A DNA stretch of 64,000 nt from contig NZ_CP049057.1 in NCBI RefSeq assembly GCF_011044175.1, positions 3,207,501 through 3,271,500 on the forward strand. Reading direction: 5' to 3'. The stretch's first letter is position 1. The number at the start of each line of letters is the position of its first letter. The notes beneath the pieces are model-generated. The model searched no databases. It had not been told where the DNA came from and saw only the letters and a program-made list of their open reading frames with translations. This document shows positions 5,993 through 52,245 of the stretch, in pieces. Source of the stretch: Rasiella rasia. GTDB taxonomy: Bacteria > Bacteroidota > Bacteroidia > Flavobacteriales > Flavobacteriaceae. The position numbers and the translations under genes were made by a program.

Positions 5993-5995
5993 CAC

Positions 5996-6396: not shown

Positions 6397-6469
6397 GTTT
6401 ACTTTTTTGATAATGTTATGTTTACAGCAACATTCACGAAGATCGTCAGAGGTTGGTATAAATCGAGTG

Positions 6470-6499
6470 CAAAGATACTCTTTTTTTAAAATGAGCCAA
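6470..6499 (-). promoter_or_regulatory. complete Bacteroidota promoter of rplS
   Basis: On the minus strand: TTG, then 19 bases, then TATCTTTG. This matches both the -33 and -7 elements of the Bacteroidota housekeeping sigma factor at the expected spacing. It gives rplS a leader of about 65-70 bases and decides the rplS start in favour of 6396. Confidence 0.8.
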
Positions 6500-6629
6500 C
6501 TGTCTAAGCGATAAATTACAAAGTGTACTTGGTTATTCGTGTTTTGTTCTGAAATATCCAAACATGATACATGCTACCTAGTTTACAATCACTCGCTTAT
6601 AGTCTATAAATGAACTTTACAAAAAGGTC

Positions 6630-7307: not shown

Positions 7308-7349
7308 TGAAATGGTTTAAATTAGACTACTATAGCCTTGTTTATTGCG

Positions 7350-8717: not shown

Positions 8718-8734
8718 TTTTAGCTGCTTTTCTG

Positions 8735-8742
8735 CAAAACTA
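8735..8742 (-). promoter_or_regulatory. -7 promoter element for the DEAD-box helicase gene
   Basis: Minus-strand TAGTTTTG matches TAnnTTTG. The G lies 18 bases before the ATG at 8717, implying a short leader of about 10-13 bases. Confidence 0.5.
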
Positions 8743-8789
8743 CCACAATGAACTGGTTAACATACCTTTTTTAGGGTATTATCGCAGTT

Positions 8790-9284
8790 TTAAAAAAGTT
8801 CTTTTTTCGACTTACAGCGTTCAATAGACTTTTTAGCGCGGTCTAAGGTAGCCTGATCTAAGGTGTTAAGGCCTGCATTTCTGAATTGCTCTATAGCTTG
8901 GTCTAGTTTACCTTGCTGCTCGTACATGATGGCGTATTCGTTATAAATGGTAGATTTTGTAACACCCGGAATATTTAAGGCTTGGTCTAAGAGTTCTTTT
9001 AATTCATCCCATTTACCAAGTGTAGATAAAAGCACCGAATAGTTGTAATAGATGGCCGGATACATAGGTGATTTCTCTAAACACAATTTGTAGAGTGTCT
9101 CTCCTTTTTCATATTCCTTAAATTTTGTCTCATATAAAAACCCCAAATGGTTGTATGTTTTTCCGTAGTTAGGATCGATTTTTATCATTTCTTCTAAGAT
9201 GTTTTCAGCTTTTTCATAGTGCCCATTTTTAATAGCTGCGTTGGCATTATCCAACATCTCTTCTAGTTTTGTAAGGTGGTCCAT
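8790..9284 (-). CDS. tetratricopeptide repeat protein
   Basis: A 164-residue soluble protein made of TPR-like helical pairs. Typical signatures are AENILEEMIKIDPNYGKTYNHLG near 26-48 and PAIYYNYSVLLSTLGKWDEL near 75-94, with a third repeat around LDQAIEQFRNAGL. No signal peptide or membrane segment is seen, so a cytoplasmic scaffold is likely. It sits between a helicase and an acetyltransferase on the same strand, with no obvious operon logic. The specific role is unknown. Confidence 0.8.
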   Translation of the reverse strand: MDHLTKLEEMLDNANAAIKNGHYEKAENILEEMIKIDPNYGKTYNHLGFLYETKFKEYEKGETLYKLCLEKSPMYPAIYYNYSVLLSTLGKWDELKELLDQALNIPGVTKSTIYNEYAIMYEQQGKLDQAIEQFRNAGLNTLDQATLDRAKKSIERCKSKKELF

Positions 9285-9322
9285 GTATTGAAGTTTAAGA
9301 ATATAAAAATAAGGAAAATTCT

Positions 9323-9766
9323 CTAGTGTATTTCCCAGGTATAATGAAAAACTGCGGTATCTTTTTTCCAGCCAATTCGTTCATACAAGTGTTGTGCTGG
9401 ATTGTGAGTTTCTGTTTCTAATGTAATTCCCTTTGCACCTTTTAAAATAGCAAATTGTTTAGCATGCTGCATTAAGGCTTCACCAACCCCCTTTTTTCTA
9501 TGTGCTTCGGAAACGTACAAATCGTTTAAAATATAGGTGCGTTGGGTTGAAACCGAAGAAAATGACGGATAGAGCTGTGTAAATCCCATAGCTTCTTCGT
9601 TTTCTGAAATCGCTATAAATATGGTAGAGTCGCCCTTTTCTAATCGTTCTGTAAGAAATTTTTCGGCCCGGGCTATGTCTGAAGGTTGTTTGTAAAAAAC
9701 CCTGTAGCCATTAAACAGTGGAGTAAGTTTATTGAGATGACTAAGAGTAGCCGCTTGTATTTTCAT
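9323..9766 (-). CDS. GNAT family N-acetyltransferase
   Basis: A 147-residue single-domain acetyltransferase using acetyl-CoA. The pyrophosphate-binding loop is visible as VSEAHRKKGVGEALM (near 90-104), preceded by the beta-strand LNDLYV and followed by GITLETETHNPAQHLYERIGW, the usual C-terminal part of the fold. The acceptor is unknown. It begins 7 bases after the stop of the DUF748 gene, so the two are probably co-transcribed. Confidence 0.88.
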   Translation of the reverse strand: MKIQAATLSHLNKLTPLFNGYRVFYKQPSDIARAEKFLTERLEKGDSTIFIAISENEEAMGFTQLYPSFSSVSTQRTYILNDLYVSEAHRKKGVGEALMQHAKQFAILKGAKGITLETETHNPAQHLYERIGWKKDTAVFHYTWEIH

Positions 9767-9772
9767 ATCAAT

Positions 9773-10999
9773 TTAGTTGTCGTCGTTTTTATCTTCGTCT
9801 TCGGCACCATCAAAAATACGTTTTAATAATCCATCTGTGGTATCATTTTTACGTGCTTCACGTTTTTTTTCTCGTTGCTTTTTGCGTAGTTCTCTTTTTT
9901 CTTTTTTGGTAAGATTGGAGTCGTTAAAGGCATCTTCAAATTCGATGTCATCATCAACATCACCTTTAAAAGCACTAATCCATGCGTTTTCAAAAATGTT
10001 GAATACGGTAGCCCAAACCCCTGCTTTCGTATTATTTAAATCGCCTTCTATAGGTACTTTAGTTGCTATAGTATTGGTTCCTTGATTTTTCAGAATAAAT
10101 TTAAAAAAACCAACAAGTCCTTCCCATAAAACGCCTAAAAAACCATCTTCTTTTCCTATGAGTTTAGAGTCTTTTAAAAGCGGTTTTATGTATCCTTTAA
10201 GGTAACCATCTGCAATAGCAATTTCACTGTAGAGGCTAAAATCTCCTTCTTCAAAATCTATACCTGCATAATGTCTGGTAAATGGGTTTAGTGCAGTAAC
10301 ATTAGAATGTTCTAAGGCAAAATTGAGATTCAAGTCTGGTATTTCTTTAATAATATTTACGTTTCCGTCTAGTTTTACATTTCCACCACCAATAGAGATA
10401 CCTGTGGCTGTTACTGGCGAAGGCAATACACGTTCTTTTTCTACTACATTACGCAGATTGCTTGCAGTAAGGTGAATTTTATCAATATGAATATCAATGT
10501 TTGGGTCGCTGTCTAATTCAACAAAGGCAAATTTGCCGTCAAAAACTTCAAACTTGTTTATTTCTAGCGGGACAATATCGGTAAGAGCTTTGGTCCAGTC
10601 GTCTATATTTGCTTTACCCTCTACAGGTGTAGTTTCCTGGTCTTCTAGAATATAGATTACCTCAGGGCTAGTCATAATTATTTCTGCTACTATGCTACCA
10701 TCAAAAAGTGCGCCCCATTCGATAGAGATATCTGTTTTAGGAAAATTTAAAAAAGGTACTTGGGTATCTGCGTCTACTTTGTCTAAATACATTCCTTCTA
10801 CAACATAAGCCCCACGATAAAGAGCCATGTCTACATCTTCTACTTGGCCGTAGTATCCTGGAATGTCTGCTAGTACCTCGTTTATGTAGTCTTTCACCCA
10901 ATACGGAAGGTATATTCTTGCCGCAATTAATAACGCCAAAATAATTATAGGGATTGTATACCGCTTCTTCTTATATGCCTTTCGCTTGTTCTTAGTCAT
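9773..10999 (-). CDS. DUF748 / AsmA-like membrane-anchored protein
   Basis: A 408-residue protein with a basic N-terminus (KNKRKAYKKKRY), one membrane segment (about 15-30, IPIIILALLIAARIYLPYWV) and a long periplasmic beta-rich region. Segments such as VEGMYLDKV, NIDDWTKAL and INKFEVFDGKFAFVELDSDP resemble the DUF748 family, related to AsmA/TamB-type envelope proteins thought to span the periplasm. The C-terminal 60 residues are highly charged and low-complexity (Lys/Arg/Glu, then Asp), an unusual tail. A role in envelope lipid or protein homeostasis is an inference. Confidence 0.72.
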   Translation of the reverse strand: MTKNKRKAYKKKRYTIPIIILALLIAARIYLPYWVKDYINEVLADIPGYYGQVEDVDMALYRGAYVVEGMYLDKVDADTQVPFLNFPKTDISIEWGALFDGSIVAEIIMTSPEVIYILEDQETTPVEGKANIDDWTKALTDIVPLEINKFEVFDGKFAFVELDSDPNIDIHIDKIHLTASNLRNVVEKERVLPSPVTATGISIGGGNVKLDGNVNIIKEIPDLNLNFALEHSNVTALNPFTRHYAGIDFEEGDFSLYSEIAIADGYLKGYIKPLLKDSKLIGKEDGFLGVLWEGLVGFFKFILKNQGTNTIATKVPIEGDLNNTKAGVWATVFNIFENAWISAFKGDVDDDIEFEDAFNDSNLTKKEKRELRKKQREKKREARKNDTTDGLLKRIFDGAEDEDKNDDN

Positions 11000-11061
11000 T
11001 ATATCTTTCTCTGTATCACAAAATTGAAAGAATACCGACTAATATTGAGTTAAGGGAGTCA

Positions 11062-11090
11062 TAAAAAAGCCCAGTCTTATGGACTGGGCT
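11062..11090 (-). terminator. rho-independent terminator of the GAPDH gene
   Basis: On the minus strand AGCCCAGTCC pairs with GACTGGGCT around a 4-base loop, a 9-10 bp GC-rich stem, followed by TTTTTT. It lies about 24 bases past the GAPDH stop. Confidence 0.9.
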
Positions 11091-11113
11091 AAAATTATAT
11101 TATGTAGATACTA

Positions 11114-12562
11114 TTAGTAATACGTATATCTTCTAACATTAGAAATATACTTTGCCAATCTAATTACCTGATGGCTGTACCCGTATTCATTATCGTACCA
11201 TACGTATAAAACAGCGTTTTTTCCATCTGCAGCAACTATTGTTGCATTGCTATCAAAGATTGAGGGTGCCGAAGAACCAACAATATCGCTTGACACAAGT
11301 TCATTATTGAGGCTGTATTTTATTTGTTCTACTAGGTTGCCCTCTAATGCATACTTTTTCATGATAGCGTTAATACCATCGATTGAAGTTTTTGCTTCAA
11401 GTTCAAGTTTTAAAATAGCCAATGATCCATTAGGAACAGGCACTCGTATGGCATTTGAGGTAAGCTTTCCTTCAAAAGAAGGTAGTGCCTTACTTACAGC
11501 CTGACCAGCTCCAGTTTCGGTAATAACCATGTTAAGCGCGGCCGCACGACCACGTCTGTATTTTTTATGCATGTTATCTACCAAGTTTTGATCGTTGGTA
11601 TATGCATGAATAGTTTCTAAATGTCCTTGTACTACGCCAAAGCTATCTTCTATTGCTTTTAAAACTGGTGTGATTGCATTGGTTGTACATGACGCCGCAG
11701 AGAATATATTAACCTTTGCAGGATCGTGCTCTTCATGATTTACACCATGAACAATATTCGGTACATTTTTTCCAGGAGCTGTTAATAATACTTTGCTCGC
11801 TCCATTTGGTACAAGGTGACGTGCCAAGGCAACATCATCTCTAAAGGCACCTGTATTGTCTATAATTAGCGCGTCGTTAATTCCATAGTCTGTATAGTCT
11901 ATATCTTCTGGCTGATTCGCAGAGATTATATGTACAGTCGTACCATTAATAATTAGTGCTTTGTTTTCAACATCTACACTAACAGTTCCTAAAAAATCAC
12001 CATGAACCGAGTCGTATTGTAATAAAGATGCTCTTTTTTCTAGCACTGTTTGATCTACATTTCCTCTAGTTACGATAGCACGAAGGCGCATTTGGTTTCC
12101 TTTACCAGTACGTGTCATTAACTCACGTGCCAATAATCTACCAATACGTCCGAAGCCATATAAAACCACATCTTTTGGAGTTATATCTTTTACGTCCTTA
12201 GCATCTTTTAGTTTGTCTGAAACAAATGCTAAAGCGTTCTCGTATTGATTGTCTTCTAGGTGATACTCATAGGTTAGTTTTCCTATGTCTAGTTTTGCTG
12301 GAGGAAGATCTAGTGTTTGAATTGCCTGAGCAATCTCTACACTATCGAAGATTGAAATTGGTTTTTGAACAAATTCGCCCGCATATTCGTGTAAGTTTAA
12401 AATTTCACTCACGTTACGGTCGATTAGTTGATTGCGAAAAAGCACGAGTTCAATCGACTTATCGTACCAAAGGTCGCTAACGGTTTTAATAAATTCTACG
12501 GAAGCCTTACGGCGATCGGTTTGAAAAGACAGTTCTTTTTCATAAACGTCATCAAAACTCAT
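11114..12562 (-). CDS. gap: glyceraldehyde-3-phosphate dehydrogenase, long N-terminally extended form
   Basis: This enzyme interconverts glyceraldehyde-3-phosphate and 1,3-bisphosphoglycerate with NAD(P). It has 482 residues, about 145 more than classical GAPDH. The extra part is an N-terminal, mostly helical and acidic region of about 125 residues. The Rossmann loop GFGRIG is at 136-141, the catalytic Cys in SAASCTTNAITP at C292, and the C-terminal domain ends with WYDNEYGYSHQV. Such long forms are known in Bacteroidota. Which direction (glycolytic or gluconeogenic) it serves cannot be told. It is monocistronic with its own promoter and terminator. Confidence 0.93.
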   Translation of the reverse strand: MSFDDVYEKELSFQTDRRKASVEFIKTVSDLWYDKSIELVLFRNQLIDRNVSEILNLHEYAGEFVQKPISIFDSVEIAQAIQTLDLPPAKLDIGKLTYEYHLEDNQYENALAFVSDKLKDAKDVKDITPKDVVLYGFGRIGRLLARELMTRTGKGNQMRLRAIVTRGNVDQTVLEKRASLLQYDSVHGDFLGTVSVDVENKALIINGTTVHIISANQPEDIDYTDYGINDALIIDNTGAFRDDVALARHLVPNGASKVLLTAPGKNVPNIVHGVNHEEHDPAKVNIFSAASCTTNAITPVLKAIEDSFGVVQGHLETIHAYTNDQNLVDNMHKKYRRGRAAALNMVITETGAGQAVSKALPSFEGKLTSNAIRVPVPNGSLAILKLELEAKTSIDGINAIMKKYALEGNLVEQIKYSLNNELVSSDIVGSSAPSIFDSNATIVAADGKNAVLYVWYDNEYGYSHQVIRLAKYISNVRRYTYY

Positions 12563-38563: not shown

Positions 38564-39385
38564 ATGGCATACAATCTTTTAAAAGGAAAAAAAGGAATCA
38601 TTTTTGGAGCGCTAGACGCAAATTCTATCGCATGGAAAACAGCAGAGCGTATTCATGAAGAAGGCGGTCAATTTGTACTTACTAACGCGCCTATTGCCAT
38701 GCGAATGGGGCAGATAAATGATCTTGCTGAAAAGACAGGATCTCAAATCATTCCTGCCGATGCTACGAGTTTAGAAGATTTAGAGAACTTGGTAGAAAAG
38801 TCTATGGAAATTCTGGGAGGTAAAATTGATTTTGTGCTACACTCTATTGGCATGTCTGTAAACGTTAGAAAGGGAAGGCACTATACCGACCAAAATTACG
38901 ATTGGACTCAAAAAGGATGGGACGTTTCTGCGGGATCTTTTCATAAAACGATGCAAACACTCTATAAAAAAGATGCTATGAATGAATGGGGGAGTATCGT
39001 AGCGTTAACATATATGGCGGCACAACGAGTTTTTCCAGACTATAATGATATGGCAGATAACAAGGCTTATTTGGAATCTATTGCAAGAAGTTTTGGTTAT
39101 TTCTTCGGAAAAGATAAAAAAGTACGTGTTAATACAATTTCTCAATCTCCAACGCCAACTACTGCTGGTCAAGGCGTAAAAGGTTTTGATGGCTTTATTG
39201 CCTATGCCGAAAAAATGTCACCGCTAGGAAATGCTACTGCAGAAGACTGTGCTAATTATACTGTGGCTATGTTTAGCGATTTGACAAAACGAGTTACCCT
39301 TCAGAATCTTTTCAATGATGGTGGCTTTAGCAATATGGGGGTGAGTGATATGGTCATGGATACCTTTGTAAACAATCAAGAATAG
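38564..39385 (+). CDS. fabI: enoyl-[acyl-carrier-protein] reductase (NADH), FabI
   Basis: FabI reduces the enoyl-ACP double bond in the last step of each fatty-acid elongation cycle. The 273-residue SDR protein has the N-terminal LLKGKKGIIFGALDANSIAW typical of FabI, HSIGMS (about 95-100), and the FabI-type catalytic spacing Tyr-x6-Lys in DYNDMADNKAY. It appears monocistronic. Confidence 0.96.
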   Translation: MAYNLLKGKKGIIFGALDANSIAWKTAERIHEEGGQFVLTNAPIAMRMGQINDLAEKTGSQIIPADATSLEDLENLVEKSMEILGGKIDFVLHSIGMSVNVRKGRHYTDQNYDWTQKGWDVSAGSFHKTMQTLYKKDAMNEWGSIVALTYMAAQRVFPDYNDMADNKAYLESIARSFGYFFGKDKKVRVNTISQSPTPTTAGQGVKGFDGFIAYAEKMSPLGNATAEDCANYTVAMFSDLTKRVTLQNLFNDGGFSNMGVSDMVMDTFVNNQE

Positions 39386-39547: not shown

Positions 39548-42433
39548 ATGAAAAAAACTACTTATTTGTGGGCAATTATGTGCTTAATGGTAAGCACGTT
39601 GGTTGCGCAAACCCCGGCCGAAATGTCCGAAATTCAAGCAGCAAATGCTGTCGAAAATTCTGACGTTAATGTTCAAGAGCTATTAGATAGACTAGCTGCT
39701 ACAGGTTCTTCACCTTTGGCAGATACGCAAGTGTTCTCGCTTGAAGAACGAATTGCGCTTCAGCAATACTACAGACAACAAAATAGTACCAGTACTAGAA
39801 TGGCGAATATCATTCCAAATGCTGGGCTTACTGAATCATTTGCAGTAGTTGTAGGTGACTTCTTTTACGATCCAACCGACGGAGTTAATGGAGGTCCTGG
39901 AGGTGATTGTACTACAACGTCTTCAGGTAACCCTGGAGATTACCCAAACTGTGGGTGTTTCACAACTACAACACTTACAGGAACAGACCTGGAAGTAGAG
40001 TTTTTATCATTTAACGTTTTTGGAACCTTTGATTCTCTTCAAATTTTTGACGGTCCAGATACGGCATCGCCAATGATATACGATAGTAACTTAAATGCCG
40101 ATACAGACACTTTAGCAGGTATGATAGCTGCTAATGGAGGTGACGCGGTATTTGTTTCTACTACTGGAGCCTTAACATTCTTGTTTGAATCAACTACAGT
40201 TGTGAATACTTGCGGCTGGGAAGTTGAAGTTGTTCCTCCTGGCACCGGTGGTGGTGGCGGAGGCGGCGGAGGCGGCGATAATGTTTTTGCCTATGACGCT
40301 GGTTTTTGTTCTATGGATATGGGAACATTTGATGTTGCAGGACCTTACACAATTAATGTAGTAGGAACTTCTAGTACTTCTATTTTTAGTGGTGATTATG
40401 ATGGAAGTGGAACTTTGTATGCAATGGATAACGATACACTTTCATTAATTACTGTTGATCCAACAACTGGAGCAGAAACTACGGTAGGGCCATTAACAAA
40501 TATTGTTGCTGGTCATAATACACGTGGTCTCGCTTGGGATAACTCAACAAGTACTATGTATTTGTTAAGTGGTCTTGGTGATGACGTAACGCTTTACACT
40601 GTAGATTTAGCAACCGGAACCTTAACTGAAGTAGGAACATCGACTATTGTTGGTCTTATAGGAATTTGGTTAGCGATAGACAATGATGGAAATGCATATA
40701 TGGCTGATATTGGTTTAGATAATTTTTATAGCATGGACCTTACTACAGGTGCTGCAACGTTAATTGGACCACTAGGAATTGATATTAGTTTTGCGCAAGA
40801 TGCCGATTTCGATCCAGCTACCAACATATTATATATGGGTGCCTACATCGGTGGAGGTGTAAATGAATGGGCTTCTGTAGATGTAACTACGGGAACAGCT
40901 ACGCCATTAGGGGCTGTAAATGCAAATTGTGCTGAGTTAGGTATTGTTGCGATTTCAGGTGCAGTTGCAGTATCAAATGACGAATGTGCAGGCGCTATCG
41001 CAATGTCATGTGGTGATGTAGAAGTAGGTGATACAAGTACAAACACAGACACTGGCGGATTTAATGATTCTCCAGATGCATGGTATTCTTATACAGGTTC
41101 AGGCGATCCTGAGTTCGTTACCTTCTCATTATGTGATGGAGGAACAGCATACGATTCTCGATTAACAGTATACGATGTTTGTGGTGGTGTTGAAATCGCC
41201 CTAAACGATGATGCTTGTGGATTACAATCAGAGGTAAGTTTCTTATCAGATGGTACTACTACGTATTTTGTAGCTGTAGAAGGATTTGGAACAGGTGATG
41301 CTGGAGCTTTCAGTTTAGAAGTTTCATGTAGCCCAGTTGCAGCCAATGACCTTTGTGACGATGCGATTGCCGTGAGTTGTGGAGATGTAATATCTGGTAG
41401 CACTAATTTTGCCACTATTGATGATGCTGTTGCAGGAAACTGTGATGATACTTTCGATCCAACACCGTTTTTACCAACAGTAGAGGTTGTATCACCAGGA
41501 GTATGGTACTCTTACACAGAGCCTATTCCAGGTTTTGTACAAGATATTACCTTAGATTTATGTGATGCTGCAGATTTCGACACTAAGATTTCAGTATACT
41601 CAGGAGACTGTGGTGCTTTAGTTTGTGTTGCTGCGAATGATGATAATGACGACTGTACAGGCTTTACTTCAACGGTAGAGTTCCAGAGTGATGGTATTTC
41701 AACGTACTATATTTTAGTACATGGATTTAACCAAACAGGAAACTTTGATTTATCAGTTAACTGTGCACCAGTACCTCCACCAAACGATATGATTGTAAAC
41801 TCTATCGATGTTGATGAGATAGGCTTCCCTTACACAGATCCAGCAGTAAACATGCCTGGTGCTACAGTAGAAGCTGGAGGAACTCCTGCCGACTGTGATA
41901 ATGCAGGTGTACGTGGAGTATGGTACAATTTTGTTCCAGAGATGGGGGGAACTGCTACCGCGAGTGTAACAACACCAGCAGCTTATACTTCTGTTACTTT
42001 CTATACGGCTCCAGATGAGGATTCAGTAGAGACAGATCTTGTATTGGTAGATTACTTTGATAACCAATGTGTACCGGGAGCAGATGCTTCTATATTAGTA
42101 ACTGCAGGTCAGCCATACTATGTGTATGTAGCAAACCAAGGTGGAGTTACCGATATTGTTATCGATGGAGACTTCTACTTAGGTATTGGAGATACAGAGA
42201 TTCAAGGATTTAGTTATTTCCCTAACCCAGCAGAGAATCAATTGAACCTACGTTCAGGAGGTGGTACTATAGAGAGTGCTATTATCTACAACATCTTAGG
42301 TCAAGAAGTATTGTCTGAGCGCGTAGGAAGTAGCGACGCTCAATTGAATGTAGCTAACCTAAGCGTTGGAACATACATTTTGAAAGTTGTTGTTGATGGC
42401 GAATTAGGCATCTACAAGATTGTAAAGCAGTAA
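39548..42433 (+). CDS. T9SS-exported modular protein 1 (CUB-like, Gly linker, propeller, repeated C-terminal module)
   Basis: A 961-residue secreted protein. After the signal peptide (to about VAQ, residue 21) and a short helical region come a CUB-like domain (about 95-225; FNVFGTFDSLQIFDGP), a run of ten glycines (234-243), and a DUF4394-like propeller (about 245-475; TLYTVDLATGTLTEVG, NFYSMDLTTGAATLIG). Then follow three Cys-containing beta-sandwich repeats resembling pre-peptidase C-terminal domains, and a type A T9SS sorting domain (about 885-961; SYFPNPAENQLNL, ILGQEV, YKIVKQ). From residue about 483 it is nearly identical in DNA to the next two genes. Adhesin or binding roles are inferred. 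Confidence 0.85.
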   Translation: MKKTTYLWAIMCLMVSTLVAQTPAEMSEIQAANAVENSDVNVQELLDRLAATGSSPLADTQVFSLEERIALQQYYRQQNSTSTRMANIIPNAGLTESFAVVVGDFFYDPTDGVNGGPGGDCTTTSSGNPGDYPNCGCFTTTTLTGTDLEVEFLSFNVFGTFDSLQIFDGPDTASPMIYDSNLNADTDTLAGMIAANGGDAVFVSTTGALTFLFESTTVVNTCGWEVEVVPPGTGGGGGGGGGGDNVFAYDAGFCSMDMGTFDVAGPYTINVVGTSSTSIFSGDYDGSGTLYAMDNDTLSLITVDPTTGAETTVGPLTNIVAGHNTRGLAWDNSTSTMYLLSGLGDDVTLYTVDLATGTLTEVGTSTIVGLIGIWLAIDNDGNAYMADIGLDNFYSMDLTTGAATLIGPLGIDISFAQDADFDPATNILYMGAYIGGGVNEWASVDVTTGTATPLGAVNANCAELGIVAISGAVAVSNDECAGAIAMSCGDVEVGDTSTNTDTGGFNDSPDAWYSYTGSGDPEFVTFSLCDGGTAYDSRLTVYDVCGGVEIALNDDACGLQSEVSFLSDGTTTYFVAVEGFGTGDAGAFSLEVSCSPVAANDLCDDAIAVSCGDVISGSTNFATIDDAVAGNCDDTFDPTPFLPTVEVVSPGVWYSYTEPIPGFVQDITLDLCDAADFDTKISVYSGDCGALVCVAANDDNDDCTGFTSTVEFQSDGISTYYILVHGFNQTGNFDLSVNCAPVPPPNDMIVNSIDVDEIGFPYTDPAVNMPGATVEAGGTPADCDNAGVRGVWYNFVPEMGGTATASVTTPAAYTSVTFYTAPDEDSVETDLVLVDYFDNQCVPGADASILVTAGQPYYVYVANQGGVTDIVIDGDFYLGIGDTEIQGFSYFPNPAENQLNLRSGGGTIESAIIYNILGQEVLSERVGSSDAQLNVANLSVGTYILKVVVDGELGIYKIVKQ
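40247..40276 (+). repeat. ten-codon glycine tract
   Basis: Ten consecutive glycine codons using GGT, GGC and GGA. It encodes a flexible linker between the CUB-like and propeller domains. Codon mixing makes frequent slippage less likely, but unit changes would stay in frame. Confidence 0.9.
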
Positions 42434-42489
42434 GCTTTAGATCATAAATTAATAATGACTAAGCCACCTCAAAATTGAGGTGGCTTTTT
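40994..42489 (+). repeat. tandem 3' module, copy 1
   Basis: This block covers the last 480 codons of protein 1 plus the stop, spacer and terminator. By direct reading it differs from copy 2 at about seven bases in 1496, with no insertions or deletions. Four of the five differences near the 5' part change amino acids (V to T, S to N); the rest are silent. Confidence 0.95.
42461..42489 (+). terminator. terminator of protein 1 gene
   Basis: AAGCCACCTC pairs with GAGGTGGCTT (10 bp, loop AAAATT), followed by T residues. The same hairpin recurs after the second gene. Confidence 0.92.
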
Positions 42490-42607
42490 ATTGTTGATAA
42501 TCCCTTGATTTATTAACTAATGGAGTAGAATTATTTTCAAACTTATACTAGAAACCGATTAATGTGTATATTAGTAGTTACTATAATCTATAACTAAATT
42601 TTTAATT

Positions 42608-45076
42608 ATGAAGAAAATTACAATTCTTATTGCCTTACTGGCATGTACTTTGGGATTTGCTCAAGAAAGTGTTCGGGAAACTAGCCGAATCACTATTGAA
42701 GATGTTCCAACTGAAAGATTGGCGAACTTGCCAATGTATCACAACGCATTTACACCTTTGCCAGGAGATACTCCAGAAGGTGGAGATATTTGGACTGTTA
42801 CTGTTTCCGTACCTGGATTTGGTGATGAAGTTTCATGGGAACTTAGAGATGATCTAGGTGTTGCAATTCTAAGTGGAGGTCCAATCGCTACAGGAGGTTC
42901 AGAAACTTTAATGGTGAACACTAGTTCAAGCCCTTTAGAATTCTTTATTGAATCTATAGGTACATTCAACGACAATACACCAACTTGGGAAGTTTCGTGT
43001 AGTGGTGTTGTTGCCACTACGGGTACTTTAGCTGGTGGTACAGATGCTACTGAATCTGGTTTAGTGTGTGGCGTAGGCTTGCCGCCAGTATGTGGAGGTG
43101 AAAACCTTACGAATGCTTTTGAAAATGCATTCTTTAGTTCTCCTGGAACCTTTCCGGATCAAGTAATTGCTGGTGATTTAACCGTTCCCGCAGATAGCGA
43201 TTTTACTCTAGACACTATGTTGACAGAGATTTGGGTTAATCCAGGACAAACTATTCTTTCGGTAGATATTACTATATATGGAGATGCAGCAGGATCTCCT
43301 GATACAGGTAATGTAATAACTACATTTGCTGGTCTTGCACCTGATTCACAAACAAATGTAGGTTCAAATTTTGGATTTGACATATATGATGTGTCATTTG
43401 ATATGGGCGGACTTTCTTTAAGTGGTCAGCCAGGGACAACTACAGAATATTGGGTAAGCATGTACATTTTTGCAAGTGACAATAATGATGCCGGATGGGG
43501 AGCTACTTCTGTATCATCTGTAGCCAACAACCTACATTTTTCATTAGATGGTGGTGTGACTTGGACTTTGGATACTGTAAACGATGTTGTTGCTACTTAT
43601 ATTGGTACTTGTGCTAACAACGATGAGTGTTCAGGAGCTATCGCAATGTCATGTGGTGATGTAGAGACAGGTGATACAAGTACAAACACAGACACTGGCG
43701 GATTTAATGATTCTCCAGATGCATGGTATTCTTATACAGGTTCAGGCGATCCTGAGTTCGTTACCTTCTCATTATGTGATGGAGGAACAGCATACGATTC
43801 TCGATTAACAGTATACGATGTTTGTGGTGGTGTTGAAATCGCCCTAAACGATGATGCTTGTGGATTACAATCAGAGGTAAGTTTCTTATCAGATGGTACT
43901 ACTACGTATTTTGTAGCTGTAGAAGGATTTGGAACAGGTGATGCTGGAGCTTTCAGTTTAGAAGTTTCATGTAATCCAGTTGCAGCCAATGACCTTTGTG
44001 ACGATGCGATTGCCGTGAGTTGTGGAGATGTAATATCTGGTAGCACTAATTTTGCCACTATTGATGATGCTGTTGCAGGAAACTGTGATGATACTTTCGA
44101 TCCAACACCGTTTTTACCAACAGTAGAGGTTGTATCACCAGGAGTATGGTACTCTTACACAGAGCCTATTCCAGGTTTTGTACAAGATATTACCTTAGAT
44201 TTATGTGATGCTGCAGATTTCGACACTAAGATTTCAGTATACTCAGGAGACTGTGGTGCTTTAGTTTGTGTTGCTGCGAATGATGATAATGATGACTGTA
44301 CAGGCTTTACTTCAACGGTAGAGTTCCAGAGTGATGGTATTTCAACGTACTATATTTTAGTACATGGATTTAACCAAACAGGAAACTTTGATTTATCAGT
44401 TAACTGTGCACCAGTACCTCCACCAAACGATATGATTGTAAACTCTATCGATGTTGATGAGATAGGCTTCCCTTACACAGATCCAGCAGTAAACATGCCT
44501 GGTGCTACAGTAGAAGCTGGAGGAACTCCTGCCGACTGTGATAATGCAGGTGTACGTGGAGTATGGTACAATTTTGTTCCAGAGATGGGCGGAACTGCTA
44601 CCGCGAGTGTAACAACACCAGCAGCTTATACTTCTGTTACTTTCTATACGGCTCCAGATGAGGATTCAGTAGAGACAGATCTTGTATTGGTAGATTACTT
44701 TGATAACCAATGTGTACCGGGAGCAGATGCTTCTATATTAGTAACTGCAGGTCAGCCATACTATGTGTATGTAGCAAACCAAGGTGGAGTTACCGATATT
44801 GTTATCGATGGAGACTTCTACTTAGGTATTGGAGATACAGAGATTCAAGGATTTAGTTATTTCCCTAACCCAGCAGAGAATCAATTGAACCTACGTTCAG
44901 GAGGTGGTACTATAGAGAGTGCTATTATCTACAACATCTTAGGTCAAGAAGTATTGTCTGAGCGCGTAGGAAGTAGCGACGCTCAATTGAATGTAGCTAA
45001 CCTAAGCGTTGGAACATACATTTTGAAAGTTGTTGTTGATGGCGAATTAGGCATCTACAAGATTGTAAAGCAGTAA
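42608..45076 (+). CDS. T9SS-exported modular protein 2
   Basis: An 822-residue secreted protein with signal peptide KKITILIALLACTLGFAQ. The N-terminal 340 residues are unlike those of protein 1. They include two beta-sandwich stretches: ELRDDLGVAILSGGPIATGG near 76-95, and a region (about 160-335) with DLTVPADSDFTLDTMLTEIWV and NNLHFSLDGGVTWTLD. Such segments are common in Bacteroidota surface proteins, but I cannot name a family. From NDEC (about residue 338) it carries the common C-terminal module: three PPC-like repeats and the T9SS sorting domain. No catalytic motif is visible. Confidence 0.83.
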   Translation: MKKITILIALLACTLGFAQESVRETSRITIEDVPTERLANLPMYHNAFTPLPGDTPEGGDIWTVTVSVPGFGDEVSWELRDDLGVAILSGGPIATGGSETLMVNTSSSPLEFFIESIGTFNDNTPTWEVSCSGVVATTGTLAGGTDATESGLVCGVGLPPVCGGENLTNAFENAFFSSPGTFPDQVIAGDLTVPADSDFTLDTMLTEIWVNPGQTILSVDITIYGDAAGSPDTGNVITTFAGLAPDSQTNVGSNFGFDIYDVSFDMGGLSLSGQPGTTTEYWVSMYIFASDNNDAGWGATSVSSVANNLHFSLDGGVTWTLDTVNDVVATYIGTCANNDECSGAIAMSCGDVETGDTSTNTDTGGFNDSPDAWYSYTGSGDPEFVTFSLCDGGTAYDSRLTVYDVCGGVEIALNDDACGLQSEVSFLSDGTTTYFVAVEGFGTGDAGAFSLEVSCNPVAANDLCDDAIAVSCGDVISGSTNFATIDDAVAGNCDDTFDPTPFLPTVEVVSPGVWYSYTEPIPGFVQDITLDLCDAADFDTKISVYSGDCGALVCVAANDDNDDCTGFTSTVEFQSDGISTYYILVHGFNQTGNFDLSVNCAPVPPPNDMIVNSIDVDEIGFPYTDPAVNMPGATVEAGGTPADCDNAGVRGVWYNFVPEMGGTATASVTTPAAYTSVTFYTAPDEDSVETDLVLVDYFDNQCVPGADASILVTAGQPYYVYVANQGGVTDIVIDGDFYLGIGDTEIQGFSYFPNPAENQLNLRSGGGTIESAIIYNILGQEVLSERVGSSDAQLNVANLSVGTYILKVVVDGELGIYKIVKQ

Positions 45077-45132
45077 GCTTTAGATCATAAATTAATAATG
45101 ACTAAGCCACCTCAAAATTGAGGTGGCTTTTT
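43637..45132 (+). repeat. tandem 3' module, copy 2
   Basis: This copy lies exactly 2643 bases downstream of copy 1 and aligns to it without gaps, including the 56 bases after the stop. Its distinguishing changes are GAGACA in place of GAAGTA (codons near the start of the block) and AAT in place of AGC at the end of the first beta repeat. Confidence 0.95.
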
Positions 45133-45136
45133 TTTT
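45104..45136 (+). terminator. terminator of protein 2 gene
   Basis: The same 10-bp stem and AAAATT loop as after gene 1, followed here by a longer T-run of nine. It is part of the duplicated block. Confidence 0.93.
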
Positions 45137-45221
45137 GAAATTTCTAATGTACTGATAACTTGTTAGCTACCATGTTTTTCATATCTTTACTGAAGTTTTC
45201 AATAACCAAAACCAATTTATT

Positions 45222-48209
45222 ATGAAAAGAATTACCATGTTAATGGGTCTTATGTTGTGTAGCATATTTGCTGTGCAGTCTCAGACAACAAATGTAAATA
45301 GTTCGCGAACAGTACAACCAAGTACACCAACTGTATCCATGGCAGATGTGTTGGAGCGCTACAACAATTTAGATACAAGCACTAATTTAGTACCCACAGA
45401 TGTGTTTACACCAGTTGAATTACAAATGTTAAGAGGGCATTTAAATTCAACTTCTGGAGAACGTATGGCGGTATTACTTACAGAAGATTTTGTAGATATT
45501 ACAACATTGCCTGGTGCGGGATATGATTTAATTAATGTTAGTGATGCCCCAGGAGCTACAGATTGGCTTCAAGGAAATGATGGTGTATTCCCAGCTCAAT
45601 CTGGAGCACCAACAGAATACATTGCAGCTAACTTTAATAATACAGGTGGATCTGTTATCAATAACTTTATGATAACCCCGCCACTTGATTTAGAGAATGG
45701 GGATGAAATCATTTTCTGGAGCCGATCTACAGAAACGACTCCTGGCTTTGATTTCCCTGATAGACTAGAAGTACGTATAGATCCTACAGGAGCAGATACA
45801 GATCCTGCAAATTCAACAGATGTAGGTTCTTATACCGAACTTTTATTAGAGATAAACCCAACTCTTGCGTCTATGGGGTATCCAGAAGTGTGGACTCAGT
45901 TTACAGCTACTGTATCTGGCCTATCCGGAACAGTAAATACACGCGTTGCCTTCAGATATTGGGTGACCAATGCGGGACCTTTTGGATCTAATTCAGACTA
46001 TATTGGTATCGATTCGCTCGTTATTCAGGAAGGTGGTACAACTCCGCCTCCAGCAACGGGGATGGCATTTGCTGCGGAAGGAATAGATGACGAATATATT
46101 AATTTTGACATAGCAACTCCAGCTGGATATAGTGTTGTAGGACCATCCACCATAATTTACGAATGTGGCACCGTGGTTGATCCAACAAATTCAAATCTTG
46201 GGATTGTATTAGGAGAAAATGGCGATGTAAGTAGCCTTGATTTTACTACAGGTGTTTACACACCCATTGGGAGTTTACCAGTCCCAGCAGGAACTTTTTG
46301 GGCAGCTATGGACGTAGATAGCTCTGGTCAAGTATACGCCCTGGCACTTGATTCTTTGACTGCCACTTCCACATTGTACAGTGTAGATTTAACAGCACTA
46401 ACGAGCACCATGATTGGCGCAACAGGTATAGCGTTTAATTTTGCGTTAGGTATTGATGAAAATGATGTTGCCTACAGTGTATCTAATACAACAGATTCTT
46501 TATATACTATAGACTTAACTTCAGGTGTTGCTACCTTAGTGGGGCCAACTGGAGTTGATACAGAGTTTGGTCAAGAACTTTCTTTCGATGGAAATACCAA
46601 TACAATGTATTTAGCCGCATTTAATAATGGAATTTTTAATGGAGAATGGAGAAGCGTAGATACTGCAACTGGGGCAACTACTTCTTTAGGAGAATTTGCT
46701 CCTGCAGGATTTAAGCAAATAACTTGGGTAGAGATACCTGTGGTTGTTACCAACGACGAATGTATGAATGCTATCGCAATGTCATGTGGTGATGTAGAAG
46801 TAGGTGATACAAGTACAAACACAGACACTGGCGGATTTAATGATTCTCCAGATGCATGGTATTCTTACACAGGTTCAGGCGATCCTGAGTTCGTTACCTT
46901 CTCATTATGTGATGGAGGAACAGCATACGATTCTCGATTAACAGTATACGATGTTTGTGGTGGTGTTGAAATCGCCCTAAACGATGATGCTTGTGGATTA
47001 CAATCAGAGGTAAGTTTCTTATCAGATGGTACTACTACGTATTTTGTAGCTGTAGAAGGATTTGGAACAGGTGATGCTGGAGCTTTCAGTTTAGAAGTTT
47101 CATGTAATCCAGTTGCAGCCAATGACCTTTGTGACGATGCGATTGCCGTGAGTTGTGGAGATGTAATATCTGGTAGCACTAATTTTGCCACTATTGATGA
47201 TGCTGTTGCAGGAAACTGTGATGATACTTTCGATCCAACACCGTTTTTACCAACAGTAGAGGTTGTATCACCAGGAGTATGGTACTCTTACACAGAGCCT
47301 ATTCCAGGTTTTGTACAAGATATTACCTTAGATTTATGTGATGCTGCAGATTTCGACACTAAGATTTCAGTATACTCAGGAGACTGTGGTGCTTTAGTTT
47401 GTGTTGCTGCGAATGATGATAATGATGACTGTACAGGCTTTACTTCAACGGTAGAGTTCCAGAGTGATGGTATTTCAACGTACTATATTTTAGTACATGG
47501 ATTTAACCAAACAGGAAACTTTGATTTATCAGTTAACTGTGCACCAGTACCTCCACCAAACGATATGATTGTAAACTCTATCGATGTTGATGAGATAGGC
47601 TTCCCTTACACAGATCCAGCAGTAAACATGCCTGGTGCTACAGTAGAAGCTGGAGGAACTCCTGCCGACTGTGATAATGCAGGTGTACGTGGAGTATGGT
47701 ACAATTTTGTTCCAGAGATGGGCGGAACTGCTACAGCGAGTGTAACAACACCAGCTGCTTATACTTCTGTTACTTTCTATACGGCTCCAGATGAGGATTC
47801 AGTAGAGACAGATCTTGTATTGGTAGATTACTTTGATAACCAGTGTGTACCGGGAGCAGATGCTTCTATATTAGTAACTGCAGGTCAGCCATACTATGTG
47901 TATGTAGCAAACCAAGGTGGAGTTACCGATATTGTTATCGATGGAGACTTCTACTTAGGTATTGGAGATACAGAGATTCAAGGATTTAGTTATTTCCCTA
48001 ACCCAGCAGAGAATCAATTGAACCTACGTTCAGGAGGTGGTACTATAGAGAGTGCTATTATCTACAACATCTTAGGTCAAGAAGTATTGTCTGAGCGCGT
48101 AGGAAGTAGCGACGCTCAATTGAATGTAGCTAACCTAAGCGTTGGAACATACATTTTGAAAGTTGTTGTTGATGGCGAATTAGGCATCTACAAGATTGTG
48201 AAGCAGTAA
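45222..48209 (+). CDS. T9SS-exported modular protein 3 (choice-of-anchor J-like, propeller, repeated C-terminal module)
   Basis: A 995-residue secreted protein. The signal peptide (to about SIFAVQSQ) is followed by a short helical region like that of protein 1 (DVLERYNNLDTS, DVFTPVELQMLRGHL). A cleaved-adhesin/choice-of-anchor J-like domain comes next (about 85-270; LLTEDFVDITTLPGAGY, NFMITPPLDLENGDEIIFWS), then a propeller (about 310-510; TLYSVDLTALTSTMIG, SLYTIDLTSGVATLVG) related to that of protein 1. The common module starts at about NDEC (513). Surface adhesion or ligand binding is an inference. Confidence 0.85.
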   Translation: MKRITMLMGLMLCSIFAVQSQTTNVNSSRTVQPSTPTVSMADVLERYNNLDTSTNLVPTDVFTPVELQMLRGHLNSTSGERMAVLLTEDFVDITTLPGAGYDLINVSDAPGATDWLQGNDGVFPAQSGAPTEYIAANFNNTGGSVINNFMITPPLDLENGDEIIFWSRSTETTPGFDFPDRLEVRIDPTGADTDPANSTDVGSYTELLLEINPTLASMGYPEVWTQFTATVSGLSGTVNTRVAFRYWVTNAGPFGSNSDYIGIDSLVIQEGGTTPPPATGMAFAAEGIDDEYINFDIATPAGYSVVGPSTIIYECGTVVDPTNSNLGIVLGENGDVSSLDFTTGVYTPIGSLPVPAGTFWAAMDVDSSGQVYALALDSLTATSTLYSVDLTALTSTMIGATGIAFNFALGIDENDVAYSVSNTTDSLYTIDLTSGVATLVGPTGVDTEFGQELSFDGNTNTMYLAAFNNGIFNGEWRSVDTATGATTSLGEFAPAGFKQITWVEIPVVVTNDECMNAIAMSCGDVEVGDTSTNTDTGGFNDSPDAWYSYTGSGDPEFVTFSLCDGGTAYDSRLTVYDVCGGVEIALNDDACGLQSEVSFLSDGTTTYFVAVEGFGTGDAGAFSLEVSCNPVAANDLCDDAIAVSCGDVISGSTNFATIDDAVAGNCDDTFDPTPFLPTVEVVSPGVWYSYTEPIPGFVQDITLDLCDAADFDTKISVYSGDCGALVCVAANDDNDDCTGFTSTVEFQSDGISTYYILVHGFNQTGNFDLSVNCAPVPPPNDMIVNSIDVDEIGFPYTDPAVNMPGATVEAGGTPADCDNAGVRGVWYNFVPEMGGTATASVTTPAAYTSVTFYTAPDEDSVETDLVLVDYFDNQCVPGADASILVTAGQPYYVYVANQGGVTDIVIDGDFYLGIGDTEIQGFSYFPNPAENQLNLRSGGGTIESAIIYNILGQEVLSERVGSSDAQLNVANLSVGTYILKVVVDGELGIYKIVKQ
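46770..48209 (+). repeat. tandem 3' module, copy 3
   Basis: This copy is gap-free against copy 1 at a shift of 5776 bases and ends at the stop codon, where similarity stops abruptly. By eye it differs from copy 2 at about eight bases. It shares GAAGTA with copy 1 but AAT and GAT with copy 2, a mosaic pattern that fits gene conversion. Confidence 0.95.
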
Positions 48210-48361: not shown

Positions 48362-51160
48362 ATGAAAAAAATTACTTTTTTATCAGTTTTGTTGATAAGC
48401 GCATTGAGCTTTGGGCAAAACGGAGCAGTGGATGGCATTTCCACTACTTCAAACCAAAATGTCACTACGAGAGTGACTAATAATACTGTAGTATCCTTTT
48501 CTGGAGAGATGGGACGCAGTAATGCTTCTTTTAACGGTACTGTATACCATAATCCTGAGTCTACAAGACAGATGCCAGTATTGGCATACGAGTCGGGGCC
48601 ATACTTTAGTATAGCAGGTACACCAGATGTAAGTCTGTTGGAAGATACAACCCTATTAATGCAAAATTATGGGTACGGTGTTCAAGTTGTTAATGATAAC
48701 CGAATTGCTGAAGATATTATTCTTGCAGACGATTATGATGTAACTTCTATGGAGTTTTTCGCGTATCAATCTTTTACGCCAACGGCACCTCCAACTATCA
48801 ACGAAATTAATATGCAAGTTTGGGACGGAGATCCAAGTTTGCCAGGTAGCTCTGTTATATATGGTGATGCTACTACTAACGTACTTACTAGTGTAGTATG
48901 GAGTGGAGCCTACAGACAATTAGAAAGTGGTCCAAATACAGACCGTGCTATTCACAGAATTACAGTAGATACTCCAGGCTTATCTTTAGCTGCAGGTACG
49001 TACTGGGTAGACTGGCAAATTGGTGGTACAGCGACTTCAGGTCCATGGCAACCACCTGTTGCGATTTTAGGTCAAACAACAACAGGAAATGGAATGCAAT
49101 CTATTGCGGGTACATGGGGAATCATGGAAGACCCAGGAACACTTACACAACAAGGAGCTCCTATTCGTGTGATGGGTGATTGTACAAGTTGTGCGTCATC
49201 TGCAACTACATTTACTACTTTAGGTGACCTTGAAGCTGCATGTCCAAGTGCAGTAGATTTCACAATGGAAGATTTTGCAGATTCAAACTTTGGTCCAAAC
49301 AGTGTTTCTGCATGTGGTGTAGAATTAAGTAATGCTGGTGATGGTACATGTTATAATGCCGGTGTTTTAGAAGAAGGATTTAGTATTACCGTCGGTGCTG
49401 GCGGTGGTGGTGGACTCACAGTTTTGTTAACAACAGGATTTATAGGAGTACCAAGTGACTATGTAGGAGCAAACTCGTTTGCAGACTTTACTATTCTAAA
49501 TTTTACTGGGCCAGATGACGTTTATAGTGCAGGATTCGACATTTTTAATAACTCTAATGTTGATACTGAAATACGTTTGTTCGATGCTGGAGGCATTCTA
49601 ATAGATACTTTCACAGTTACTAATCCTATAAATACTGCAAATTTCTTTGGCTTTATTTCAGATGTTCCTGTAAGTCGTGTTGAAATTGAAGGTATTGCAG
49701 GATCAGGTGAATTAATCTCAAATCTTCTTTTTGGTGCGTGTATTGAAAATGATATTTGTACAGATCCGTTTGTGTTAACATGTGGTGATGTAGTTGCTGG
49801 AGATACTTCAGACAATACAGACCAAGGTGGTGCTAACGATTCTTTAGATGAGTGGTACTCTTTCACAGGAACTGGATTCGAACAAGTAGTTACTATTTCA
49901 CTTTGTGATGGAGGAACAGCATTCGATTCTTTATTAACTGTGTACGATTCTTGCGGAGGCGCTGTAGTTGCAGACAATGATGATTCTTGTGGATTACAAT
50001 CTGAAGTAAGTTTTACGTCAGACGGAACATCTACATATTATATTGCAGTTGAAGGTTTTGATGCTTCTGAATTTGGCGCATACAATCTAGAGATTAGTTG
50101 TGTTGTACCTTTTGATAACTGTGATATTGCAGGGTCTATTAGTTGTGGAGAAACCGTTGTTGGTTCTACTGCAAATGCTAGTCCAGATCTTGGTGTTCCA
50201 GATTGTGGTGGAGGAAATGATGCTCCAGGTCTTTGGTATGTAATTAATGATACTTCAGGATTAGTGACAGATTACACAGTTTCATTGTGTGATGGTGGAA
50301 CTACGTACGATAGTAAATTAGTAGTATATTCAGGTGACTGTGGTGCTTTAGTTTGTGTTGCTGAAAATGACGATTCTTGCGGTCTTCAGTCTGAATTAAC
50401 ATTCCAAAGTGATGGTAGTTCTACTTACTATATACTTGTAAATGGTTTTAATGCAGCAAGCTCAGGAGATTTCTCTCTTAACTTATCTTGCCTTCCTGTA
50501 CCTCCTTTCAACGATATGATTGCAAATTCTATAGACGTAGATGAGGCAGGACTTCCTTACACAGATCCAGCAGTGCCTATGCCAGCAGCTACAACAGAAG
50601 CAGGTGGTACTCCAGCGGTTTGTGATAATGCTGGTGTATTAGGAGTTTGGTACAATTTTGTTCCAGAACTTAACGGTACAGCTACTGCTGAAGTAATTAG
50701 CCCAGCAGGATATACTTCAGTTACTTTTTACACAGCTCCAGACGAAGATTCTGTAGAAACAGATCTTACGTTAGTAGATTGGTTCGATAACCAGTGTGTA
50801 CCTGGAGCAGATGCTTCTATCCCTGTTGTAGCAGGACAAGCATACTACGTGTACGTTGCAAATCATGATGGTATTACTGATATCGTAATTGATGGTGACT
50901 TCTATCTTGGAGCAGATGATAACGTAATTCAAGGATTTAGTTATTTCCCGAATCCAGCAGATAACCAACTAAACTTAAGTTCTGGTAATGGTACAATTGA
51001 AAGTGCTGTTATTTATAACATCTTAGGTCAAGAAGTATTGTCTCAAAAAGTAGGAAGCAGCAATGCTCAATTGAATGTTGCAGGTCTTACAGTTGGAACC
51101 TATGTTTTAAAGGTTGTTGTTGATGGCGAATTAGGCATCTACAAAATTGTAAAGCAGTAA
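48362..51160 (+). CDS. T9SS-exported modular protein 4, diverged member of the array
   Basis: A 932-residue secreted protein with signal peptide KKITFLSVLLISALSFGQ. The N-terminal half has a beta-sandwich region (about 115-265; ILADDYDVTSMEFFAYQSF, INEINMQVWDGDPSLPGSSV) and a second one (about 285-455) containing GVELSNAGDGTCYNAGVL, a Gly-rich turn and VSRVEIEGIAG. Three Cys-containing PPC-like repeats follow (SLCDGGTAFDSLLTVYD; CGLQSEVSF), then a type A sorting domain ending YKIVKQ. The C-terminal half is homologous to the common module but diverged at many codons. The start is fixed by the promoter at 48329-48336. Confidence 0.83.
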   Translation: MKKITFLSVLLISALSFGQNGAVDGISTTSNQNVTTRVTNNTVVSFSGEMGRSNASFNGTVYHNPESTRQMPVLAYESGPYFSIAGTPDVSLLEDTTLLMQNYGYGVQVVNDNRIAEDIILADDYDVTSMEFFAYQSFTPTAPPTINEINMQVWDGDPSLPGSSVIYGDATTNVLTSVVWSGAYRQLESGPNTDRAIHRITVDTPGLSLAAGTYWVDWQIGGTATSGPWQPPVAILGQTTTGNGMQSIAGTWGIMEDPGTLTQQGAPIRVMGDCTSCASSATTFTTLGDLEAACPSAVDFTMEDFADSNFGPNSVSACGVELSNAGDGTCYNAGVLEEGFSITVGAGGGGGLTVLLTTGFIGVPSDYVGANSFADFTILNFTGPDDVYSAGFDIFNNSNVDTEIRLFDAGGILIDTFTVTNPINTANFFGFISDVPVSRVEIEGIAGSGELISNLLFGACIENDICTDPFVLTCGDVVAGDTSDNTDQGGANDSLDEWYSFTGTGFEQVVTISLCDGGTAFDSLLTVYDSCGGAVVADNDDSCGLQSEVSFTSDGTSTYYIAVEGFDASEFGAYNLEISCVVPFDNCDIAGSISCGETVVGSTANASPDLGVPDCGGGNDAPGLWYVINDTSGLVTDYTVSLCDGGTTYDSKLVVYSGDCGALVCVAENDDSCGLQSELTFQSDGSSTYYILVNGFNAASSGDFSLNLSCLPVPPFNDMIANSIDVDEAGLPYTDPAVPMPAATTEAGGTPAVCDNAGVLGVWYNFVPELNGTATAEVISPAGYTSVTFYTAPDEDSVETDLTLVDWFDNQCVPGADASIPVVAGQAYYVYVANHDGITDIVIDGDFYLGADDNVIQGFSYFPNPADNQLNLSSGNGTIESAVIYNILGQEVLSQKVGSSNAQLNVAGLTVGTYVLKVVVDGELGIYKIVKQ

Positions 51161-51243: not shown

Positions 51244-52245
51244 ATGAAGCGAAGTTATTCCTTTATCATTCCTGTATACAATAGACCCCAAGAAATTAAA
51301 GAGTTGTTGGAGAGTTTTTTAGTGCTGCAATCTAACCATGAATATGAAATTGTTATTGTAGAAGATGGTAGTAGTGAAACATCGGAAGCTGTAGTAAAAC
51401 AATTTGAAAACTCTTTAAATATATCGTACTACACTAAACCAAATTCAGGTCCTGGAGATTCTCGTAACTACGGAATGAAAAAGGCTACAGGTAACTATTT
51501 TATCATCCTCGATTCAGACTGTTTACTTCCTTCTCATTATTTGGAAACTGTAGATTATTTTCTTGACAATAAGTACTATGATTGCTATGGCGGGGCAGAC
51601 GCAGCACATCAAAACTTTTCAGATTTACAGAAAGCTATAAATTATGTTATGACCTCATTTTTAACTACAGGAGGTATTCGAGGCGCAAAAAAGAGCGTCA
51701 ATAAATTTGAGCCTAGAAGTTTCAATATGGGAATTTCTAAGGAAGCATTTAATGCCACTGGCGGATTTGCGAAGATACATCCAGGAGAAGACCCCGATTT
51801 GTCACAGCGTATTCTAAAAGCTAATTTTGAAACTACCTATATTCCAGATGCCTATGTATTTCATAAAAGACGAATTTCATGGCATAAGTTTTATACCCAG
51901 GTTAAGAAATTTGGCCTCGTACGCCCCATCTTAAATAAATGGCACCCAAATGCAGCAAAAATCACTTTTTGGTTTCCTACCCTTTTTCTCTTCTTTGTTG
52001 TAGCGACTTTAGTTTTAAGCATTTTGGTTTCTTGGCTGCTAGCTTTACCATTGGTAAGTTATATTTTCATGATTTTAATAGATGCTAGTATCAAGAACAA
52101 AAGTATCTCAATCGGATTTTTAGCCGTATGGGCAATGTTCGTACAGTTTTTTGGTTATGGGATGGCATTTTTGAAGTCCACCTTTTTTATTCATTGGCTG
52201 AATAAAGAACCCGAAAAGCAATTTCCGAAGTTATTTTTTAAGTAA
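51244..52245 (+). CDS. family 2 glycosyltransferase, membrane-bound
   Basis: A 333-residue GT-A fold transferase. The start RSYSFIIPVYNRPQEIKELLESF is typical of family 2, with VEDGSSE near 40, the DxD-like metal motif ILDSDC near 92-97, and EDP with the GEDPDLSQRI helix near 181. Two to three C-terminal membrane helices (about 238-315) anchor it. The sugar donor and acceptor are unknown; it may add sugars to a lipid or surface glycan. It is followed by a YbbR-like gene after 23 bases. Confidence 0.9.
   Translation: MKRSYSFIIPVYNRPQEIKELLESFLVLQSNHEYEIVIVEDGSSETSEAVVKQFENSLNISYYTKPNSGPGDSRNYGMKKATGNYFIILDSDCLLPSHYLETVDYFLDNKYYDCYGGADAAHQNFSDLQKAINYVMTSFLTTGGIRGAKKSVNKFEPRSFNMGISKEAFNATGGFAKIHPGEDPDLSQRILKANFETTYIPDAYVFHKRRISWHKFYTQVKKFGLVRPILNKWHPNAAKITFWFPTLFLFFVVATLVLSILVSWLLALPLVSYIFMILIDASIKNKSISIGFLAVWAMFVQFFGYGMAFLKSTFFIHWLNKEPEKQFPKLFFK

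Follow-up and report, generated by a model that had tools for sequence, protein, structure and literature searches.

The 3' stem shared by three neighbouring T9SS cargo genes is, as judged from the sequences, very probably kept alike by recurrent gene conversion (concerted evolution) and not by recent duplication. Stems homogenised within the genome were found in all eight genomes with tandem copies, representing five genera, and the ends of the identical tracts differ among them.

Organisation of the locus

The window, i.e. the whole stretch of 64,000 nt that was analysed (G000:C1:3207501-3271500), belongs to a single-contig Flavobacteriaceae genome of 3.39 Mb. Genes A, B and C are arranged head to tail on the + strand, with D next to them as fourth gene. 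The features are as follows.

38564..39385, +, fabI (enoyl-ACP reductase), bordering the conserved locus on the left; orthologues in the corresponding position in G001, G002, G004, G016, L049, L050, G104, G224, G280 and G300
39548..42433, +, gene A, 961 aa: leader, N-terminal region, DUF4394-type beta-propeller head (about 261-470) and stem (ORF; PF14339, PF18962; Foldseek propeller matches)
40976..42433, +, stem of A, 485 aa: three predicted PPC-like beta units and T9SS type A CTD; near-identity from 40994 onwards (repeat comparison, model)
42461..42501, +, terminator of A; B has an identical hairpin; the A/B tract reaches its 3' limit here
42608..45076, +, gene B, 822 aa: head (1-337) and stem (ORF)
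43619..45076, +, stem of B; 99.5% identical to A and 99.4% to C over 1440 bp
45222..48209, +, gene C, 995 aa: choice-of-anchor-J domain (85-268), DUF4394 propeller head and stem (ORF, domain matches)
46752..48209, +, stem of C; 99.4% identical to A and B
48362..51160, +, gene D, 932 aa: head (1-462) and diverged stem from 49748 (ORF, domain matches)
49748..51160, +, stem of D; 69% nt identity to A-C, outside the current homogenisation group
51244..52245, +, glycosyltransferase-like gene, bordering the conserved locus on the right; next come a YbbR-like gene and coaE

All four genes are full ORFs with their own start and leader. The real start of D is the ATG at 48362, the TTG at 48248 representing a mechanical extension. 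A hairpin-T terminator is located 3' of every gene (A, B and D by terminator scan, C by direct reading). Sigma-70 scans returned fewer sites than shuffled sequences and were thus uninformative. Judging from their sequences, we take the flanking genes to be recN-like and fabI on the left and glycosyltransferase-like, YbbR-like and coaE on the right.

The shared 3' stem

The first-pass annotation had read the three copies in register without gaps, at seven or eight base differences per pair. The register shifts of 2643 bases (A to B) and 5776 bases (A to C) were reproduced, as was the gapless alignment over 40994-42433 and its counterparts. The number of differences within these 1440 bp needs a slight correction to 7 (A/B), 9 (A/C) and 8 (B/C), corresponding to 99.4-99.5% identity. 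Identity of A and B runs past the stop codon and through the shared terminator to 42501. In C the tract goes no further than the stop codon, and its spacer and terminator differ. The B-C and C-D spacers are unrelated. The stem of D shows 69% nt identity to the A-C stem overall and 77% over the last 860 bp.

Upstream of the stem, the heads of A/B and B/C are unrelated except for the leader. A and C share a propeller region, which is only 37% identical. The first-pass reading of a common display stem under different heads is supported.

Positions 41331, 41332, 41650 and 41947 set A apart from both B and C. At 41023-41025 A and C agree and B differs. The small-scale SNP mosaic in the A/B/C stems is hinting at more than one conversion event.

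A T9SS sorting domain, annotated earlier, was found in all four proteins (PF18962, E about 1e-10, and TIGR04183, above the curated cut-off). SprA is present in the genome of the window together with 88 PF18962 (CTD) matches. By CTD and SprA, A-D are predicted T9SS type A cargo that is probably attached to the surface.

The stem without its CTD (410 residues) was modelled with ColabFold/AlphaFold2 and forms three beta-rich units at medium confidence (pLDDT 74, pTM 0.48). In Foldseek, this model matches ColG at its tandem collagen-binding domains (5iku, E 7e-9), which belong to the PPC-like jelly-roll group. In Pfam, the gathering score of PF04151 is missed by D (24.3 versus a cut-off of 25.9), and A-C have no reported match to this family. 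Hence the three PPC-like repeats proposed earlier are backed by the stem model, the Foldseek match and the sub-threshold PF04151 hit of D, and "PPC-like" is a statement on the predicted fold, not on membership in the PF04151 family.

The same locus in other genomes

The order fabI-[T9SS genes]-glycosyltransferase is conserved in three congeners with two genes each (L038, L039, L040). One gene each is found at the same locus in G016, L049 and L050. Moreover the locus recurs in four further genera, with two genes in G104, G224 and G300 and two plus a short third one in G280. The copy number of tandem T9SS cargo genes at this position hence ranges from 1 to 4, and the head domains vary (beta-propeller, choice-of-anchor J, P-domain, others). 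The stem is matched at E 1e-60 or better in 23 of 299 family genomes sampled and is therefore limited to part of the Flavobacteriaceae. No description of this locus was found in the literature published as open-licence papers.

The short third gene of G280 (L138, 2884-4608, - strand, 574 aa) carries a CTD-type end only (47% over 83 aa) and lacks the PPC-like stem.

Short-read assemblies fail at repeats as long as these, such that a collapsed or falsely copied repeat could mimic the pattern. Every unit is however anchored by unique head and spacer DNA, each copy has private SNPs and the genome of the window is one contig. Moreover the pattern recurs in eight assemblies, with the locus on chromosome-scale contigs in G280, G104 and G224. 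We consider an assembly artefact extremely improbable.

Evidence for gene conversion between the stems

The identical tract spans the whole stem in the window and in G280. In G104, G224, G2 and G300 its start lies within the stem; in G1 and G4 it is internal, with diverged stem on both sides. Within the tract, dS amounts to 0.009-0.024 for A/B/C, 0.12 in G4, 0.09 in G2, 0.08 in G1, 0.03 in G104, 0.00 in G280, 0.04 in G224 and 0.42 in G300, the latter being the highest of the eight. Outside the tract, the same stems show dS from 0.59 to saturated, whereby this part comprises only 7-18 codons where the tract equals the whole stem. The tract scores lie above all 1000 permutations, and an independent run with 500 permutations is concordant. 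Among 177 between-genome pairs the highest score is 37, compared to 148-1092 within genomes.

In trees of the 3' stem, tandem copies cluster by genome (in the window A, B and C, not D), with support of 99-100% for most branches. In the 5' stem tree, the G1 and G2 pairs do not cluster, whereby the AU test leaves their clustering unrejected (p 0.24, 0.14). A placement of D of the window (W_D) as sister of A-C is rejected (p 0.0003 and 0.003). Between these species, synonymous sites of the housekeeping neighbours are at or close to saturation, so that the within-genome stem identity has to be recent and to have arisen separately in each lineage. Paralogues are closer within a genome than orthologues between species, and sharp tract ends lie in diverged genes, both as expected for concerted evolution.

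The stems form direct repeats at a spacing of about 2.6-3.1 kb, and the tract boundaries are located at or after the head-stem junction. Same-family stems elsewhere (genome of the window and two congeners) are not homogenised and show 57-66% aa identity to the array of their own genome. Exchange seems to depend on similarity and/or proximity, because the same-family stem C1:452278, far off in the genome of the window, reaches only 58% identity and has not been homogenised.

Purifying or functional selection on the stem protein could in principle keep the stems alike without recombination, and stem dN is indeed well below dS between species. Synonymous sites are however near-identical too (dS 0.01-0.03), and the orthologous stems of congeners are highly diverged or saturated. 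The synonymous identity refutes selection as the sole cause, and we give it next to no credence.

Heads and their relatives

The heads of A and C are DUF4394 beta-propellers according to Pfam, and Foldseek returns propeller matches for A. The AlphaFold2 model of full-length A is weak (pLDDT 54) and was used for the propeller region only; whole-chain Foldseek matches to long multidomain proteins had low TM-scores and were disregarded. For the heads of B and D, Pfam returned nothing.

All four heads have relatives in congeners. Identity is 69% between the heads of A and G1_A and 58-61% between those of C and G2_B. In the D head, the first 311 residues are 67-71% identical to G2_A and the second part is 49-51% identical to G4_B. 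D and G2_A have the N-terminal domain in common, but not the second one (29% forced identity). The first 160 residues of the B head are 45-50% identical to G4_B, and this head is weakly related to the head of L049. dS between the window heads and their congener counterparts is high or saturated (1.5 or more). Hence the heads are older than the stem identity, as their counterparts occupy the same locus in congeners.

These data bear on the alternative that one whole gene was recently triplicated in tandem and its copies then received other heads. Such an event would account for whole-stem identity in the window and G280 as well as for the identity of A and B through the terminator, and the copy number at the locus does vary between 1 and 4. 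It would however require all heads to be replaced again, while the heads of A, B, C and D each have separate congener counterparts at the same locus. Furthermore, the B-C and C-D spacers are unrelated, and an identical tract flanked on both sides by diverged stem, as in G1 and G4, is not expected from duplication. We thus regard triplication as largely refuted and very unlikely. From the pair of causes offered by the first-pass annotation, gene conversion is favoured by the tracts and dS values, whereas very recent duplication as sole cause conflicts with tract ends inside the stem in six genomes and with the older heads.

Other T9SS families in the genome

At least two further T9SS families of this kind exist in the genome of the window. 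The first is a tandem T9SS pair in L089 (G000:C1:2938000-2949000; genes 693-5429 and 5609-10267) with a 1372-bp module at 99.93% identity. One head is a fungalysin M36 peptidase, the other contains a Cleaved_Adhesin domain. Here the shared module ends inside the CTD and the CTD ends are diverged.

The second comprises T9SS genes with HYR repeats, namely X and Y in tandem (L085, 4684-9018 and 9235-12945) and Z (L124, 1357-5250, - strand), located 150 kb from X/Y on the opposite strand. X is a clean mosaic of its neighbour Y and of Z. Between about 2231 and 2819, it matches Y at 97-100%. Over 2916-3510, X equals Z at 99-100%, with Y being only 40-59% alike. X and Z are near-identical over about 1.4 kb and all three genes over the last 800 bp. 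The inserted display domains differ (C-type lectin-like, P-domain, others). As read from the alignments, the X/Y/Z mosaic is direct evidence for recent domain exchange between intact genes. A requirement for tandem neighbours, considered at one point, was dropped since X and Z are near-identical despite lying 150 kb apart on opposite strands.

T9SS tandem clusters were sampled. Six other tandem clusters (L084, L086, L088, L090, L091, L092) have no repeat of 100 bp or more, and L087 has only short repeats of at most 83%; all seven serve as negative controls. Homogenised modules are therefore not universal among T9SS clusters.

Is the locus a dedicated variation system?

The first-pass annotation had seen in the array a candidate antigenic, phage-receptor or adhesion variation system with swappable heads. 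The swapping itself finds support, over evolutionary time by the comparison of W_D with G2_A and recently, elsewhere in the genome, by X, Y and Z; head-domain exchange, as far as these alignments tell, is real. A dedicated system is not supported. No inverted pairs of 40 nt or more were found, and the repeats that are present are short and imperfect. No recombinase is encoded among the flanking ORFs (34-56 kb), and there is no slippage tract, the glycine run in A being a mixed GGN stretch. Silent partial donor copies are absent as well, all copies being full ORFs with leader, start and terminator.

A dedicated system would swap heads by stem recombination at high frequency within a population. 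It would fit with heads that differ between species at one conserved spot, with the N domain but not the second domain being common to W_D and G2_A, with the recent display-domain exchange in the X/Y/Z mosaic and with the spontaneous hagA-kgp recombinants known in P. gingivalis (PMC9328147). Apart from the missing silent partial copies, recombinase, inverted repeats and slippage tracts, the locus however lacks an expression site, is flanked by housekeeping genes and consists of intact copies with their own terminators. Moreover crossing-over between stems would delete the intervening head and not switch an expressed one. A dedicated system is in our view unlikely. Slow evolutionary shuffling is the best-supported reading; with one genome per species compared, fast variation would still be conceivable.

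Proposed mechanism and significance

In part of the Flavobacteriaceae, the fabI-glycosyltransferase interval is a conserved site that houses between one and four tandem T9SS cargo genes. Each of them consists of a leader, a variable head that is probably extracellular and a common stem, the latter built from three PPC-like beta domains and a type A CTD of the kind recognised by T9SS. According to the gene conversion model, ectopic homologous recombination, presumably RecA-type, would repeatedly copy stem sequence between neighbours, by gene conversion with occasional unequal crossing-over between stems, and the tract would be halted by the heterology of the heads. Through a stem-stem crossover, one head unit would be lost or doubled, in line with the differing copy numbers at the locus. 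As an outcome, heads would diverge and sometimes be exchanged, stems would stay alike and copy number would shift. Uniform stems may either be selected, e.g. by T9SS or a surface partner, or merely be tolerated. The heads are likely displayed on the surface, and their exchange may supply new binding surfaces over evolutionary time rather than act as a programmed switch.

A bolder version, possible but rather doubtful to us, treats the interval as a diversification hot spot. Fast head recombination would then lead to within-species variation in binding or phage sensitivity, selection for T9SS display would hold the stem uniform, and many T9SS families of the genome (at least three here) would behave alike and draw on a genome-wide pool of exchangeable display domains.

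The CTDs of T9SS cargo are interchangeable in principle, and how flavobacteria evolve dozens of such proteins (88 CTD matches here) is poorly documented. The locus provides replicated natural evidence, from five genera at one position, that tandem cargo genes exchange stems while heads diversify. Head-stem modularity, tract boundaries and exchange rates thereby become directly testable. New surface proteins can arise in this way with the shared anchoring part unbroken. In turn, such genes are not treatable as simple orthologues, and short-read assemblies may scramble them.

Relation to known systems

The closest precedent is kgp/rgpA/hagA of Porphyromonas gingivalis, T9SS proteins in which different catalytic heads are combined with combinatorial, near-identical adhesin modules (PMC5266723) and for which spontaneous hagA/kgp recombinants were reported (PMC9328147). 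T9SS cargo, differing heads (Lys- or Arg-protease, or none in P. gingivalis), near-identical modules and recombination between copies are common to both. In contrast to the CAD and DUF2436 modules there, the stem here is PPC-like, and neither Cleaved_Adhesin/CAD nor DUF2436 has a Pfam match in A-D. The window genes also adjoin at one spot that is syntenic across genera, what they share is the 3' end, CTD included, and the host is a marine flavobacterium instead of Porphyromonas. A-D work like kgp/rgpA/hagA but are not members of the gingipain/HagA family because the domains differ.

The bab adhesin genes of Helicobacter pylori show locus and phase variation. These outer-membrane paralogues exchange sequence by gene conversion, as described in PMC4552749. 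Gene conversion is thus common to bab and the window array, but bab is not T9SS cargo and has another fold, and locus or phase variation is absent here.

Long-lasting concerted evolution is on record for prokaryotes (tuf and others), and the short-term cases often concern outer-membrane proteins, according to PMC6053082, which cites Santoyo and Romero 2005. As with tuf, paralogues at the present locus are closer to each other than to orthologues. Those cases extend over whole genes; here, homogenisation is confined to the 3' module, with a diverging 5' half. Concerted evolution of outer-membrane proteins over the short term is already known (PMC6053082); new is the fixed syntenic locus with a homogenised 3' display stem in each of the eight genomes of five genera.

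Further head domains at the locus

In G104 (L137, genes 8445-11588 and 5210-8257), otherwise unrelated heads contain an isolated patch of 96 aa with 98% identity, which may reflect conversion or transfer of a head domain. The single-copy locus member of L049 (6773-11104, 1443 aa) contains three tandem copies of one domain (about 361-534, 545-718 and 728-901). This triplicated domain matches the second half of the window B head at 35%.
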